DNA of 21,696 nt, taken from the IMG/VR virus record IMGVR_UViG_3300042731_004246, positions 1-21,696 of that record; one strand, 5' to 3'. Below the pieces are notes generated by a model. It had not been told where the DNA came from. It saw only the letters and a program-made list of their open reading frames with translations, and made no database searches. The translations under genes were made by a program, and so were the position numbers. Source of the stretch: a virus. Shown here piece by piece: positions 7,407 to 21,161 of this stretch; the first letter of the stretch is position 1; the number at the start of each line of letters is the position of its first letter.

Positions 7407-8318
7407 CTACTTGAACGCGCCGATGAGCCGCCGCTTCTTGCGCCGCTTCTTGGTCAGCGCCAGCTTGCGCTCGTGTTCTTTTTCTGCCTCGGTCTTCCGA
7501 GACAATTCCTTACGTGTCGGCCATTCACGGTTGACGAGAGCCATCGCCGCGTCTGCCATGTGTGTTCGCCAGAAGTAGGGTCGGTCTTTCTTCCGCTCCT
7601 TCTTGATCGACCTCTTCGTCCCATCTTCCCACACCACCTCTACCATGTCGCGGACCAGGTGCGGGCAATTCCGGGGGTGGATTTTGATCCTCGGGTTGCC
7701 GAACTTGTCCTTCAGCCGAAGGTTCATGGCGGCTACCGAGTTCACATTAGAGGGATTCTTGGTCGGCACTTTCATCCTGATGTCGAACGGCGCACGCATG
7801 AACTGGATTTTCATCGTGTCATAGTTGGATCTCTGGTCGCTGTTGGAGCTGCGGCCCCTCCCGCTCGCGTCACCATAGATCCACAGTTCGCCGTAGAAGT
7901 CGCCGTACCTGTTGAGAAACTCCTCACACGCCCGGTTCACAGACCCCTCTCTAAGCCAGATTTCTTCGAGGAACCAAAGCTCTTCGTCCTTCTGAATCTG
8001 CGCGATGGCCCACGCCATGGGCTCGACGTTGAAGTCACAGCAAAGACAGAGAGGAAGCTCTGGGTTGAATTCTAATGTGTCGCTGGTGTTGGCCAGCAGG
8101 GAGAAGTTCTCGAAGCACCGTACTCCGCTGACGGAGGAGAAGTTGATCTCCATCTCCTTTTCCCAGTCGTCAGCATCGCCACGCGCCCTGGCTGCCACGG
8201 CCCACTCGGGAGACTTCGCCGGGTCGGCTGAGTAGTGGACAAACGCCAAGGCCCAGCCGCCCGGATGCCTGACGACCGGGACGTACTCATGGCCGGAGTA
8301 GGTCTTCTCTTCTTCCAT
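7407..8318 (-). CDS. Terminase large subunit, nuclease domain as a separate protein (TerL C-terminal half)
   Basis: The 303-residue protein is the RNase H-fold endonuclease that cuts concatemeric DNA during packaging. Three acidic motifs are visible: D95 in CCDFNVEPMAW, D150 in IYGDASGRGRS, and D256 in THMADAAMALV, as in TerL C-terminal domains. Residues 21-35 (GWALAFVHYSADPAK) and 52-60 (WEKEMEINF) correspond to the segment that normally links the ATPase and nuclease domains. There is no Walker A or B motif. The C-terminal 45 residues are very basic. The ATPase half lies 4.5 kb upstream as its own gene. The start overlaps the previous stop (TGATG) with a weak ribosome site, which suggests coupled translation. 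Both halves look intact, so a two-chain terminase is more likely than a pseudogene. Confidence 0.87.
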   Translation of the reverse strand: MEEEKTYSGHEYVPVVRHPGGWALAFVHYSADPAKSPEWAVAARARGDADDWEKEMEINFSSVSGVRCFENFSLLANTSDTLEFNPELPLCLCCDFNVEPMAWAIAQIQKDEELWFLEEIWLREGSVNRACEEFLNRYGDFYGELWIYGDASGRGRSSNSDQRSNYDTMKIQFMRAPFDIRMKVPTKNPSNVNSVAAMNLRLKDKFGNPRIKIHPRNCPHLVRDMVEVVWEDGTKRSIKKERKKDRPYFWRTHMADAAMALVNREWPTRKELSRKTEAEKEHERKLALTKKRRKKRRLIGAFK

Positions 8319-12329: not shown

Positions 12330-12800
12330 CTACTTGCCAGCGCCTGGTACTGGTTGGTTGCCACCCATGGCCTGCATCGGCTGAATCCCTCGAACAGGCT
12401 GCATGCTGCCAATCGCCTGCTGCCTCAACTGTGCTCCTTGCTGCTGCTGGACGCTTTGCATGGGAGCTGTCCTCATGAAGTCAGAAGCACCAGGAGCGAG
12501 GCCCCCTTGCTGCGAGACCCCCGGCAGGGTGCGTACCTTATCCAAACTCATGAAGTTAGAAGCGCCAGGAGGAGCGCTTCCCGGCTGCGAGGTCGCCCGC
12601 AGGGGGCTTATTTGGCCCCTCTGAGCACCGGGAGCGGCACCTGGCAACATGGCTGGCTGGCCAGAGGCCGGGGGCCGTCGCATGTTCGGCAACCCTCTGT
12701 TGTTCATGTTCTGCATCGGGTCTGCCATTTGAGGGTTAGCTGCCTGGCCCAGTTGACCCGCTGTAGTGGCTCCTGGTGCTGTTCCTTGTGCGGTTCCCAT
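12330..12800 (-). CDS. Gln/Pro/Gly/Met-rich low-complexity protein with an internal duplication
   Basis: The protein has 156 residues from ATG 12800, which overlaps the stop of the TerL ATPase gene (TAATG). The AAGGAGG site lies within the last codons of that gene, so translation of the two is probably coupled. The sequence is almost wholly Gln, Pro, Gly, Ala and Met and is likely disordered. Two related segments (GASNFM and GASDFM contexts) reflect an imperfect 58-bp duplication in the DNA. It has no membrane segment or catalytic motif. It is the first gene of the five-gene insert between the terminase halves. A virion-internal or assembly role is possible, with no family recognised. Confidence 0.65.
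   Translation of the reverse strand: MGTAQGTAPGATTAGQLGQAANPQMADPMQNMNNRGLPNMRRPPASGQPAMLPGAAPGAQRGQISPLRATSQPGSAPPGASNFMSLDKVRTLPGVSQQGGLAPGASDFMRTAPMQSVQQQQGAQLRQQAIGSMQPVRGIQPMQAMGGNQPVPGAGK
12472..12604. repeat. Imperfect 58-bp direct repeat, two copies 75 bp apart
   Basis: Copies at 12472-12529 and 12547-12604 both begin CTCATGAAGT and end GCAGGG, with most intervening bases alike (AGAAGC, CCAGGAG, CTGCGAG). Spacing of 75 bases keeps the reading frame of the low-complexity protein. The repeat reflects internal duplication in that gene and shows no sign of being a mobile-element end. Confidence 0.75.
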
Positions 12801-13516
12801 TATGCTACTAGCCTCCTTACGTCCTTGTAACTCCTGACACCGCAAGCATCAGCAAGCTCGGCCAGGATGCCGATCGGCCCATCGCTGGACGAAGCGAGGA
12901 CCAACTGTGCGCCATTCTGTACCATGGGGAGAGCGGCCCTGACAACTGCCGGGGCCTCTGCCTGAAACTCACACTCATCAACGAAGATCTTTGTGGCCGT
13001 GTACTGCCGAAGGACATCACCACCGCTGGCGAGCGCCCAAATGTAGGAGTCGTTTGGGTAGGTGATGTGACCGATCAGCCCGGTCTTTGTCTTCATCGTT
13101 TTAATTGGAAGGCGGAAGGCGGGGTCTCGAAGGTGCTCCTCGATGAATCTGCACCTCTTGTCCACAGCAAATGCTGATTTTTGCTCTGTCTCTGACATAT
13201 AGAAGATGGCGCTGTTGGGATGGTAGCGCGCATCGTGGACAAAGTAGGCTGACAGTAACCAAGAAACCATCATGCGGCGTGATTTGGGCACGCCCACCAG
13301 CGGCTCGTTTTGAAGCACGGCGAGGAGTTCGCGGAGATATTGGTGGTGACGGGGCCAGTTGTAAATTCTGTCCCGACTCTGCTCCGTGATGTGCTGAGAT
13401 TCGTCTACCGTGCGGACTTGTTGACAGAAAAATTTCCAGGGGTTGGCAGCGTATTCTTCGTCAAGCCTCTCCTTCTGGATCAGAAGGAGCGCCGCCTCTT
13501 CCCTGTCCGTTAGCAT
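12800..13516 (-). CDS. Terminase large subunit, ATPase domain as a separate protein (TerL N-terminal half)
   Basis: The 238-residue protein is the motor ATPase that pumps DNA into the prohead. Residues 75-85 (GVPKSRRMMVS) form the deviant Walker A loop seen in many terminases. IFVDE (177-181) is Walker B with its catalytic Glu, and LVLASSS (205-211) is the coupling motif III. NPWKFF and the NWPRHHQYLRELLAVLQ helix are typical of the N-terminal part. The frame stops 27 residues after motif III, just where the linker to the nuclease would begin, and that domain is encoded separately at 7407-8318. Its start overlaps the TerS stop (TAATG) and its stop overlaps the next start. This argues for an established gene arrangement and not a recent frameshift. 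Confidence 0.86.
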   Translation of the reverse strand: MLTDREEAALLLIQKERLDEEYAANPWKFFCQQVRTVDESQHITEQSRDRIYNWPRHHQYLRELLAVLQNEPLVGVPKSRRMMVSWLLSAYFVHDARYHPNSAIFYMSETEQKSAFAVDKRCRFIEEHLRDPAFRLPIKTMKTKTGLIGHITYPNDSYIWALASGGDVLRQYTATKIFVDECEFQAEAPAVVRAALPMVQNGAQLVLASSSDGPIGILAELADACGVRSYKDVRRLVA

Positions 13517-15034: not shown

Positions 15035-16294
15035 TTAGAATGGGACGCCAGTAAACTCTTCAAACTTCCCGCCCCGGCCAAAGGTCAAACGCAGCTTTCC
15101 TGGAATCCCGAAGCGATCTTTCCTGATGTATACCATCGTGCTGGATGCGTTCTCATCCCTGTCGAGCATGACGACCGCGTCGGCGTGTGCTTCGATCGCT
15201 CCAGACTCACGAAGGTCGTGGAGCTCTGGTGGTCTCTTCTCGGCCTTGGACCGCCTATTAAGTTGGGAACACGCGATGACCGGCACTCGTAACTCCTGCG
15301 CCAACACCTTGAGCTGGCGGGCTATCTCCCCAACAATCTGCTCCCGGTTCAGCCCGCGCTGCCCACGGATTCCCATGAGCTGGAGATAGTCGGCAACTAC
15401 CAAGCAAATGGGGTTTCTGACCTGGAGCATCTTGGCCATGGCGTTGATCTTCGAGGGTGTCATGGCCCCGGGCTGCATGATGTGCATGGTGTTGAGATCC
15501 CTCATGGAGATCCTGGCTGCCTTCACTGCGTCGAGGGCCTGGCCCGTCGGTGTCTTCACTGCCTGGGGTCCGAGCCCGGTTTGCTGGGCCACGAGCCGCT
15601 CTACCAGCTCACCGGCTGCCATTTCCGCCGAGGCGAACAGAACGTGCCCACCGGCCCTCGCGTTGAACATGGCGATCTGCAGCGCCAGGCTTGTCTTCCC
15701 TGACCCTGGCGTGGCTGCCACCACGATCATCGCGCCGTTCCTGAAAGAGATCCTCTCGTCTAACGCGATGAGCCCGGAGGGGGCGCTCGTCGCCGCAACC
15801 GGCAGGTCATCCTGTCCTACCACCTCTGCCACCGTCACGGTCTTGGCCTCGGCAACTCCTCCAAGGACACGGATTGCCCCCGACTCCAGAGTCGTGATCT
15901 TCTCCGCGGGGTCAGTCTTGACCAATACCGAGTGGCACAGCTCGTCAACCTCTCGGGCCGTTCTCATGGCCCTCAGCGAAAGCATGTGGTGCTTGACGAG
16001 ACCGGGGGCCGGGAGATTGTTGGTCAGCTCAGCGACCGCAACCGCCCCGCCGACTGCCTCGATGCTGCTGTTCCTCCGCAACCAGTGGATCACAGCGGCC
16101 TCGTCCGCCTCGCCGCTCCCGTTCTCCCCGATGTCCTTGAGCGCCTGCCAGATCAACCGGTGCTTCTGCAGGTAGAAGTCTTCGCCCTCCAGCCCGAATA
16201 TCAGCGCCGCCCACAGCGCCTCCTTGGACGTGATACACGCCGCCGTGACCGCCTCTTCTATAAGCCTGTCATGAGTTAGCTGTCCCCCCTCCAT
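15035..16294 (-). CDS. dnaB: Replicative DNA helicase, DnaB family
   Basis: The 419-residue ring helicase unwinds DNA at the fork. An N-terminal helical domain (about 1-140, with WAALIFGLEGEDFYLQKHRL) precedes the RecA-like core. The core has Walker A ATPGSGKT (194-201), Walker B LVVADYLQLM with D302, the CSQLNR motif with Q344, the arginine-containing LRESGAIEAHAD (361-372), and the KDRFG motif (392-396). All are DnaB hallmarks and appear intact; the length is slightly short of bacterial DnaB (about 470). It is encoded in the leftward arm with the structural genes, opposite the initiator-like protein across the divergent promoter. The start follows the preceding stop by one base, so it is probably translated by coupling. 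Confidence 0.92.
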   Translation of the reverse strand: MEGGQLTHDRLIEEAVTAACITSKEALWAALIFGLEGEDFYLQKHRLIWQALKDIGENGSGEADEAAVIHWLRRNSSIEAVGGAVAVAELTNNLPAPGLVKHHMLSLRAMRTAREVDELCHSVLVKTDPAEKITTLESGAIRVLGGVAEAKTVTVAEVVGQDDLPVAATSAPSGLIALDERISFRNGAMIVVAATPGSGKTSLALQIAMFNARAGGHVLFASAEMAAGELVERLVAQQTGLGPQAVKTPTGQALDAVKAARISMRDLNTMHIMQPGAMTPSKINAMAKMLQVRNPICLVVADYLQLMGIRGQRGLNREQIVGEIARQLKVLAQELRVPVIACSQLNRRSKAEKRPPELHDLRESGAIEAHADAVVMLDRDENASSTMVYIRKDRFGIPGKLRLTFGRGGKFEEFTGVPF

Positions 16295-17151: not shown

Positions 17152-17190
17152 ATTTTCCGAACAACATCTCGGGAACCTTAGCTTAGGGAC

Positions 17191-18925: not shown

Positions 18926-18954
18926 ATAATCGCATCAGGTGACTGGGTTGTCAA
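18926..18954 (-). promoter_or_regulatory. Candidate antisense promoter
   Basis: On the minus strand a perfect TTGACA (18949-18954) and GATTAT (18926-18931) are separated by 17 bases, directed away from the initiator gene and towards the terminator-like hairpin about 90 bases on. The -10 box matches 4 of 6. Together they could make a short RNA antisense to the 3' end of the preceding gene. Confidence 0.35.
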
Positions 18955-18969
18955 GAGGCACGCTGGCGG

Positions 18970-18998
18970 TTGTCAACACCGTCATCATGACGTATGAT
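18970..18998 (+). promoter_or_regulatory. Promoter of the initiator gene with embedded CGTCATCA operator
   Basis: TTGTCA (18970-18975) and TATGAT (18993-18998) are separated by 17 bases, close to consensus. The spacer contains the inverted repeat CGTCAT-C-ATGACG (18980-18992), which includes CGTCATCA, the word repeated in the putative origin. Upstream, GGTTGTCAA occurs twice 22 bases apart (18946-18954 and 18968-18976). Autorepression by the initiator is a natural reading. Confidence 0.65.
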
Positions 18999-19015
18999 TG
19001 TCATGGAGGTAGATG

Positions 19016-19804
19016 ATGTCTGGTGGTTATTTCCCGCTCTTCAGAAAGTTTCTTGATTCTTCCATCATGGATCTTGAAGTCGAAACGCGGTTCGTGTTTT
19101 TGACCCTACTGCTAAAGGCCGACAAGCAAGGAGTTGTTCACGCTACTCGCTCTGCTCTTGCGAGATCCGCTGCGATGGATCTCGAAAGCGTCGAGGCTGC
19201 ACTGGCAATTCTCCAAGAACCAGATCCTGATTCCACGACACTAGACGATGATGGTCGTCGCGTTGCAGAAATTGAACCCAACACCTGGCTGGTACTCAAC
19301 TACGAACGCTACGCCGAAATGGCCCACAGCGATCGCCGTCGTCAGCAGTTAGCAGAAGCATCAAGAAAATATAGGCGGCGTCATCAAGCGTCATCAAAGG
19401 ACGATGATGCGTCATCAAAGAATAATGATGCGTCATCAGACAGTCATCAATCCCCTTCGGGTTCGGGTTTGGTATTAGGTTCGGTTAAGAAGAAGGGGGG
19501 TGCAGGGGGGAAGAAGAAATTCAAGGTACCCACAGCCAAGGAGGTCCAGGAATATCTCGACGAGAAGAAGGAGTGCAGATTCACGGGGCAGGAGTTCGTG
19601 GATGCGAACGAGCAGAAGGGCTGGCTGGTGGGCAGGACGCGGACGCCCATGAAGGACTGGCGGGCGGCTGTGCGGACGTGGATCGCGTTCAGGGACAAGG
19701 ACGAGGCTGGCGGCAAGACTGAGAATTACTTCCAGCGAGAGCTGGAGCAGGCGGCGAAAGAGGAAGAGGAATTCAAGAAGAAGGTTCAGAGGGGGGAAGC
19801 ATGA
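19016..19804 (+). CDS. Phage replication-initiator-like protein (lambda O-type organisation)
   Basis: The protein has 262 residues from ATG 19016, six bases after GGAGG; ATG 19013 is only three bases away and so less likely. The N-terminal 100 residues (KFLDSSIMDLEVETRFVFLT, VEAALAILQEPDPDS, WLVLNYERYAE) have the winged-helix pattern of phage replication-initiation proteins. A Ser-, Asp- and His-rich linker (about 120-150) follows, whose DNA carries the iteron-like repeats. The C-terminal part (FKVPTAKEVQEYLDEKKEC, PMKDWRAAVRTWIAFRDKD) has the W-x-x-A-V-x-T-W motif common at the end of such proteins and may recruit the helicase. The stop overlaps the next start as ATGA. The name rests on pattern memory and the origin-like repeats. 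Confidence 0.75.
   Translation: MSGGYFPLFRKFLDSSIMDLEVETRFVFLTLLLKADKQGVVHATRSALARSAAMDLESVEAALAILQEPDPDSTTLDDDGRRVAEIEPNTWLVLNYERYAEMAHSDRRRQQLAEASRKYRRRHQASSKDDDASSKNNDASSDSHQSPSGSGLVLGSVKKKGGAGGKKKFKVPTAKEVQEYLDEKKECRFTGQEFVDANEQKGWLVGRTRTPMKDWRAAVRTWIAFRDKDEAGGKTENYFQRELEQAAKEEEEFKKKVQRGEA
19378..19449. other. Putative replication origin: five GTCATCA iterons
   Basis: GTCATCA begins at 19380, 19390, 19411, 19432 and 19443, each on the plus strand; the first four read GCGTCATCA. Start-to-start distances of 10, 21, 21 and 11 bp equal about one or two helical turns, putting all sites on one DNA face. Copies three and four sit in a 21-bp tandem unit with TGATG before them (TGATG-N3-CATCA dyad). 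The array lies in the linker-coding part of the initiator gene, as the lambda origin lies in gene O. Confidence 0.62.
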
Positions 19805-20266: not shown

Positions 20267-20437
20267 ATGGATGAGGAGCAGGAGCGCAGGAGAGAAATAA
20301 GAGATCTCATGCGGACAATCAGTTGGAGGATGAAGCGCCTGAGAGAATCAATAGGAGAGACTGAAAGGCAGAGAGATATTCTGCATGAAAAAATGAGAGA
20401 TCTATTCTTCTTGTTTGCGGAGGACGAGGATGGATGA
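20267..20437 (+). CDS. Small charged coiled-coil protein
   Basis: The protein has 56 residues from ATG 20267 with AGGAGGGAG upstream. It is almost all Arg, Glu, Asp and Leu with a heptad-like pattern (MDEEQERRREIRDLMRTISW, then MKRLRESIGETERQRDIL) and an aromatic-acidic end (LFFLFAEDEDG). Its stop lies eight bases inside the next gene, whose ribosome site is in its last codons, so the pair is probably translated together. Function unknown. Confidence 0.65.
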   Translation: MDEEQERRREIRDLMRTISWRMKRLRESIGETERQRDILHEKMRDLFFLFAEDEDG

Positions 20438-21161
20438 CGAGCTGGACCCGATGGAGATTTTGGAGCCCCTGTTGAAATTGGGGTGGAAAATTCGTGAGGA
20501 CGGCTGGTTTATCGCCCCTAGTTCCATGCCGGATATTAACAAGCCCTTTATTTCTGCGAACTTACAGGAGCATGGTTACAGGTGTTCGTGGGAGAGGGAC
20601 ACTTTATTCACGCACATTTACAAGGGAAGCGCGGTGCCGATCCGGTGTCATCGTTGTTACAAGGTGGTGTTGGCCCCGACGTCGTTGGCTGACGTGTTAG
20701 CGATCGAGGCGTACCAGGCTGCTGGTGAGCATCCAGCGAAGGTGGGGATGGAGATCCGGCCCACGGTGAAGCGGGTATGGGGAGCGTACTGGTACACGAA
20801 CTCGGTGGAGGAGGGGTTGGAGCGGTACCGGGAGGTGAAGGAGTGGGCGCGGGGCGGGTTGAGTGATCCATTCACATTGATCCTGAAGCATGGGTGTACG
20901 GAGTTCGAGCAGACGCTCGGCCCTTCTGACAGGTGGAAGATCGAGCCCTGGCAGCACAAATTCGAGGAGATGATTTCGGAGCACGTGGTGCCGTTGGAGC
21001 CAACATCTCCGCAGCCGGAGAACGTGAAGGCGCACATCCGCAAGCAGTGGAAGAAGTGGGATCAGCTCATGCGGCCCGTGGTGACTTATCACGAGCAGCG
21101 GGTGACGCGGGAGATGGAGCGTCGGCTGAGGCAGATGGGGAAGGGGAAGGACGAGAAATAG
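20430..21161 (+). CDS. Unknown conserved-looking phage protein with one CxxC pair
   Basis: The protein has 243 residues from ATG 20430, preceded by GGAGGACGAGG; a TTG at 20415 is less likely. The N-terminal half has aromatic-rich alpha/beta character (LGWKIREDGWFIAPSSM) and CHRC (73-76) in IRCHRCYKVVLAP. The middle (VKRVWGAYWYTNSVEEGLER, then ILKHGCTEFEQTLGPSDRW) reads as a compact domain. The last 45 residues are a basic helix (VKAHIRKQWKKWDQLM, MERRLRQMGKGKDEK). I recognise the style of a phage protein family but cannot name it. A structural-modelling search would be the most informative test. Confidence 0.72.
   Translation: MDDELDPMEILEPLLKLGWKIREDGWFIAPSSMPDINKPFISANLQEHGYRCSWERDTLFTHIYKGSAVPIRCHRCYKVVLAPTSLADVLAIEAYQAAGEHPAKVGMEIRPTVKRVWGAYWYTNSVEEGLERYREVKEWARGGLSDPFTLILKHGCTEFEQTLGPSDRWKIEPWQHKFEEMISEHVVPLEPTSPQPENVKAHIRKQWKKWDQLMRPVVTYHEQRVTREMERRLRQMGKGKDEK

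Follow-up and report, generated by a model that had tools for sequence, protein, structure and literature searches.

Replication origins that lie within the gene of their own initiator are established for lambda-like phages (PMC7466680); in that work, the O of phage P27 was studied with a mini-replicon design. In phage SPP1, the origin oriL is located in gene 38, where direct repeats are bound by the product of that same gene (PMC6316719), and the lactococcal replisome organizers, ORF13 of TP901-1 and ORF16 of Tuc2009, likewise have direct repeats inside their genes to which the respective gene product binds (PMC8965321). For a phage of Francisella, a gene encoding a replication protein has been described as the site of a putative lambda-like origin (PMC7924643), and phage-inducible islands contain iterons beside an AT-rich region, which are used together with a replication initiator (PMC6092414).

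The locus considered here is part of a window of 21,696 bases, which is the whole virus record IMGVR_UViG_3300042731_004246 (positions 1 to 21,696). Its structural genes and the gene for a DnaB-like replicative helicase (15035–16294, minus strand; Pfam DnaB_C, E 1.8e-52; phrog_19, E 1.3e-65), the presumed target of helicase loading, are read from the minus strand and extend to about 17 kb; the genes of the right arm are encoded on the plus strand. Two minus-strand ORFs at 7407–8318 (phrog_10250) and 12800–13516 (phrog_5989) both match terminase large-subunit families; since they are about 4.5 kb apart, a split terminase is suggested. On the right arm, far from the DnaB gene, a replication initiator of 263 amino acids is predicted (19013–19804, plus strand). 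Of its neighbours, that at 20427–21158 was tested, and a gene for P or DnaC was not recognised next to the initiator. Searches with the capsid and the helicase retrieved one near sister phage (G001, record L076), whose capsid is 76% identical to that of the window and from which the initiator of the window is absent. The sister has an initiator-like gene unrelated to the latter beside its DnaB gene (L076:4706–5455, minus strand), with GCTAGC at spacings of 11 and 22 (P2 0.016), as well as a 522-amino acid ORF with a TROVE (Ro60-type) domain (L076:7650–9218; Pfam E 2.4e-19).

The predicted initiator consists of two parts. The N-terminal part (19013–19378, plus strand), a putative DNA-binding domain, differs from the C-terminal part in composition, with a GC3 of 0.475 and a G-C skew near 0. 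It matches the DnaD-like helicase loader profile phrog_2514 weakly and over amino acids 3–39 only (E 1.8e-4). Pfam gave no match for the protein at E ≤ 0.001, Phage_rep_O of lambda O included, and none to DnaD at E ≤ 1. With the N-terminal part alone, only matches at E ≥ 2 were obtained in phages and none among 737 local proteins; homologues of the full protein were missing from viral_contigs, PDB sequence searches returned nothing significant, an Rfam search returned nothing, and the fold predicted by a single-sequence model was unusable (pLDDT 43). In the C-terminal part, amino acids 124–260 match phrog_15768 in a profile search (E 5.9e-18), and the conserved module therein (19529–19699, plus strand), PT..EV..Y ... 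F ... GW.vG ... MKDWkAAvR.W, was delineated from the alignments A1 and A2, in both of which the columns P, W, M, K, and W are invariant; the MKDW(K/R)A motif is present in the window protein. Both phrog_15768 and phrog_28809, which PHROGs lists without function, are matched by the window protein and by 41/41 other members scanned. Among the N-terminal parts of these 42 members, matches were obtained to several families unrelated to one another, namely, DUF6291 (9), HTH_36 (6), DUF1376 (4), Phage_rep_org_N (2), Lin1244_N (2), Phage_rep_O (1), and DnaD_N (1). Phage genes that also encode the C-terminal module carry the annotations replication initiation, DUF4373, helix-turn-helix, or hypothetical protein; in several annotated phages, the next gene is that of a helicase, of a DnaC-like loader, or of replication protein P. 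The module is a predicted tail for recruitment of the helicase or its loader.

In the linker-coding DNA between the two parts, five exact copies of the word GTCATCA are found on the plus strand (19380–19386, 19390–19396, 19411–19417, 19432–19438, and 19443–19449), the starts of which are 10, 21, 21, and 11 bp apart, exactly as the original prediction had described. When the whole window was scanned, no other site was found at which any filtered 7-mer reached four or more copies per 120 bp; the total of GTCATCA on both strands is 10 (shuffle mean 3.48). Words 3 and 4 are the right halves of two dyads, TGATGcgtCATCA (19405–19417 and 19426–19438), with the layout TGATG-cgt-CATCA, which had previously been missed. 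At a probability of roughly 80%, the cluster is considered a candidate in-gene, lambda-like iteron origin of replication, an assignment made from sequence comparison.

Words 2 to 4 are read as the codons GCG TCA TCA (Ala-Ser-Ser), while words 1 and 5 are read in a different frame, as xGT CAT CAA (His-Gln). A frame shift had been claimed for the last word; it is confirmed there, but is not peculiar to it, since word 1 is shifted as well. All words make use of codons that are in the minority in this phage, namely, CAT for His (23%), CAA for Gln (21%), and TCA for Ser (15%). If the linker peptide is recoded synonymously, four or more words are reached in 0/200,000 cases with the phage-wide codons and in 0/200,000 with the gene's own codons; permutation of codons within the gene reaches them in 0/100,000. 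Because the words use two reading frames and synonymous recodings never reach four copies, the GTCATCA cluster is a signal in the DNA itself and does not follow from the peptide.

A related objection is that the linker is disordered and prone to repeats, and that the words arose there by neutral tandem duplication and have no function as DNA. In fact, words 2 to 4 are spanned by a 21-bp tandem unit (19388–19438; 2.4 copies, 90% match), so that they may stem from a single duplication and are not independent of one another. Such an event could explain these three words, but not words 1 and 5, which are in another frame and differ in their flanks. GTCATCA was also rejected as a conserved signal in itself: the same triple at 21 bp is present in 51 viral contigs, and among the matches listed it mostly reflects coding repeats in acidic or serine-rich proteins. 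Two of the listed contigs (L014, L042) carry ORFs that, by eye, resemble initiators; both exceed chance in the shuffle test. In the former (IMGVR_UViG_2882226096_000001), six TCAAATA words follow every 21 bp in the linker of the initiator-like ORF (0/2000 shuffles); as this ORF has no MKDWKAA tail, members of phrog_15768 are not the only genes with this architecture.

What carries the reading as an origin beyond the single locus is a survey of genes sharing the C-terminal module. From 179 candidates (the window, 18 of 30 matching phage records, and 160 loci), 174 genes were obtained, which fall into 128 groups according to their N-terminal part, the window included. The 160 loci are two sets of 80, namely, the best ones among at least 535 and among 304 confirmed relatives, respectively; selection of the nearest loci biases the sample toward genes closest to the C-terminal module of the window. 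As controls served 400 ORFs taken at random from 449 clusters of mechanical ORFs of the same loci. The pair statistic evaluates identical 7-mer pairs within 120 bp, anywhere in the gene, against 400 codon shuffles of that gene. When the same codon-shuffle test was applied to individual genes, lambda O, with its annotated known iterons, the rep gene of Tuc2009, and the window gene each gave 0/2000. Significance was not reached by six further phage genes, of which two belong to the window. The rep gene of TP901-1 was missed in spite of its published in-gene origin (427/2000), and a negative result of this test, hence, does not show absence.

By the pair statistic, 105, 89, and 75 of the 128 groups exceed chance at P ≤ 0.05, 0.01, and 0.003, respectively, compared to 26, 6, and 2 of the 400 control ORFs; 23 groups fail at P ≤ 0.05. 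If, more simply, only the copies of the best word are counted, 47, 30, and 17 groups and 7, 1, and 0 controls pass the same thresholds. In 74 of the 89 groups significant at P ≤ 0.01, the word with the most copies is situated 5′ of the MKDW motif, no more than 360 nt away. The parallel originally drawn to the lambda origin in gene O is supported, and initiators whose N-terminal parts are unrelated have phased repeats in the corresponding position. Control ORFs with a strongly polar stretch of 30 amino acids seldom show such clustering (9/87 at P ≤ 0.05 and 5/87 at P ≤ 0.01), which argues against neutral duplication in the linker. One non-initiator control ORF (L190_0) has four copies of TGCACAA within some 50 bp, more than codon shuffles would yield by chance, possibly an operator array.

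The distances between repeats cluster near 10–12 and 20–24 bp (127 genes, window excluded). With multiples of three set aside, helical values were counted 135 times versus 26 in shuffles, and other values 134 times versus 48. In the 38 strong cases other than the window, 72 of 127 intervals of 7–45 bp fall on nine helical values, with 29 expected under uniformity, and two or three reading frames are used in 31 of these cases. The vector strength amounts to 0.57–0.59 at periods of 10.5–11.25 and to 0.09 at period 3. Clear examples are TCCGGAG, present four times in three frames at spacings of 11, 11, and 11 in a Vibrio phage (L066), ACCGACA at a spacing of 11, five times over (L130), and CCAGTGG, present eight times at spacings of 10, 20, or 30 (L159). 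The helical phasing proposed for the words of the window is, thus, matched by the periodicity of the family, and a spacing that follows the helix and not the codon makes neutral duplication very improbable. The linker peptide is not conserved among the relatives; what is conserved is the presence and phasing of the DNA repeats, and this is the opposite of the outcome originally named as a refutation, namely, preservation of the peptide but not of the DNA words.

Judging from pairwise comparison, the word itself differs between phages and is shared mainly where the N-terminal part is similar. A repeated word is shared by 61/61 pairs with N-terminal parts at least 90% identical, by 26/32 pairs at 80–90%, and by 51/52 pairs at 70–80%, as against 463/7242 pairs devoid of detectable N-terminal similarity; even if the C-terminal parts of the latter are at least 60% identical, the fraction is 82/998. 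Coupling is not strict, as exemplified by L070 and L075, the N-terminal parts of which are 82% identical and the main words of which differ. The word of L063 is GGTGACA, and its C-terminal module is almost identical to that of L060. The nearest relative of the window by C-terminal module (L077) has an N-terminal part that resembles DUF1376 by eye and contains AAACCG at 2367, 2378, 2400, and 2411 (spacings of 11, 22, and 11), an array unflagged by the 7-mer test (P2 0.11).

The strongest G-C skew change point of the plus-strand arm is at 19459, ten bases past the last word (0/1000 block shuffles), within a composition break that also concerns GC3 (19450–19468). A skew switch near 19.4 kb, whose occurrence elsewhere was to speak against an origin, does exist in this form, but the cumulative skew minimum of the whole window is at 17170, where the coding strands diverge, and the break is atypical of the family: the differences between N- and C-terminal part in third-position skew and in GC3 rank first among 126 genes. 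Because the break is exceptional in the family and the global minimum lies at 17170, it looks like a mosaic junction, at which an imported piece made up of N-terminal part and iterons meets the resident C-terminal module, and not like the signature of an origin. G-C skew was also discarded as a general origin marker, since the third-position skew of the family does not rise across the linker (0.074 to 0.041, p 0.086); in the 1.5-kb flanks a slight rise is seen (0.098 to 0.120, p 0.003). It might be argued from the break at 19459 and its rank that the site is chiefly a recombination junction of an N-terminal cassette with the C-terminal module, the repeats marking or promoting the exchange. Other members of the family carry the repeats without such a break, however, and nothing about a junction would require the words to be helically phased, so that as a full account this is the least probable of the explanations considered. 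It is compatible with the origin reading and not opposed to it.

A strong AT-rich unwinding element does not flank the words of the window. Present is a mild AT excess of +0.10 over the gene mean at 19469–19498, a weak candidate for such an element that is located near the position of the average peak of the family. In 72 relatives, the two 30-nt bins just downstream of the last word have a mean AT excess of +0.057 and +0.089, respectively, the matched-peptide values being 0.030 and 0.047. The AT-rich region of lambda is on the same side, downstream of the iterons.

Upstream of the initiator gene there is a sigma-70-like promoter (18970–18998, plus strand; TTGTCA-17-TATGAT, 10/12), one of 3 sites of this quality in 1.6 kb, where 0.6 would be expected. 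In its spacer, between −35 and −10, a sixth GTCATCA (18981–18987), not mentioned in the original prediction, lies within the dyad GTCAT-c-ATGAC (18981–18991, plus strand) and might be an autoregulatory operator. The promoter region also contains a perfect 9-bp direct repeat, GGTTGTCAA (18946–18954 and 18968–18976, 22 bp apart), perhaps representing sites for another regulator. With a dyad placed exactly in the promoter spacer and a cluster that lacks a strong unwinding element beside it, all words could be taken for binding sites of the gene's own product that serve autoregulation or silencing only, the origin being elsewhere. Yet an operator needs no five phased sites some 400 bp inside the gene, and in the family the in-gene cluster is common and upstream copies are rare: the own word occurs in the upstream 200 bp of only 3/38 strong members, window included, so that autoregulation is not supported as a family rule. 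Moreover, the known cases of this layout, lambda, SPP1, Tuc2009, and TP901-1, are origins. A purely regulatory role is, on balance, unlikely, albeit less so than the other two alternatives.

According to the preferred origin reading, the five phased words would be the iterons to which the initiator binds, within the stretch of its own gene that encodes the linker. Contact with the GTCATCA words, two of which form full dyads, would be made by its N-terminal part from a single side of the helix, and the complex would bend or melt the adjacent DNA. The C-terminal module would then recruit the DnaB helicase (15.0–16.3 kb), either directly or via a loader of the host, and the sixth word in the promoter would allow the initiator to limit its own synthesis.

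From the family data a more general rule may be put forward, which is given slightly less than an even chance. In phrog_15768-type initiators, the linker DNA would as a rule be the origin, with lineage-private phased words inherited together with a swappable N-terminal DNA-binding domain and joined to one shared helicase-recruiting tail, so that initiator specificity and origin would be exchanged as one cassette of some 0.5 kb; the window would represent a recent exchange with its right edge at 19459. Target and DNA-binding domain would be inseparable by recombination at the domain border, which suggests why phages place the origin in the linker. The value of such a comparative rule is that the location of the origin and the word of the initiator could be predicted from sequence alone for many unannotated phages and prophages. 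A survey stating an in-gene-origin rule for the phrog_15768 family was not found in the open-licence literature; a review in a subscription journal could well hold one.

Among the known systems, the locus resembles lambda in layout, where four iterons in gene O are followed by an AT-rich region. In both, the iterons are in the middle of the initiator gene and about two helical turns apart, and both genes pass the codon-shuffle test. Some iterons of lambda have dyad symmetry, as do some words of the window. The two differ in the word, in the flank, which is less AT-rich in the window, in the absence of a recognised P gene next door, and in that homology of the protein to O is not detectable. 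With SPP1, TP901-1, and Tuc2009, the last of which likewise passes the codon-shuffle test, the window shares the position of the repeats within the initiator gene; it differs from them in that its protein has only a weak DnaD-like match at the N-terminus and carries the phrog_15768 tail. SPP1, in addition, has a second origin. In the phage-inducible islands, the origin is 3′ of the initiator gene, whereas the iterons of the window are inside the gene. Since in-gene origins are already known for lambda, SPP1, TP901-1, and Tuc2009, the locus of the window would be one more example; it is rather the family-wide rule that deserves the time of a specialist. For phrog_15768 and phrog_28809, a role in helicase recruitment, coupled to an in-gene origin, is proposed here.
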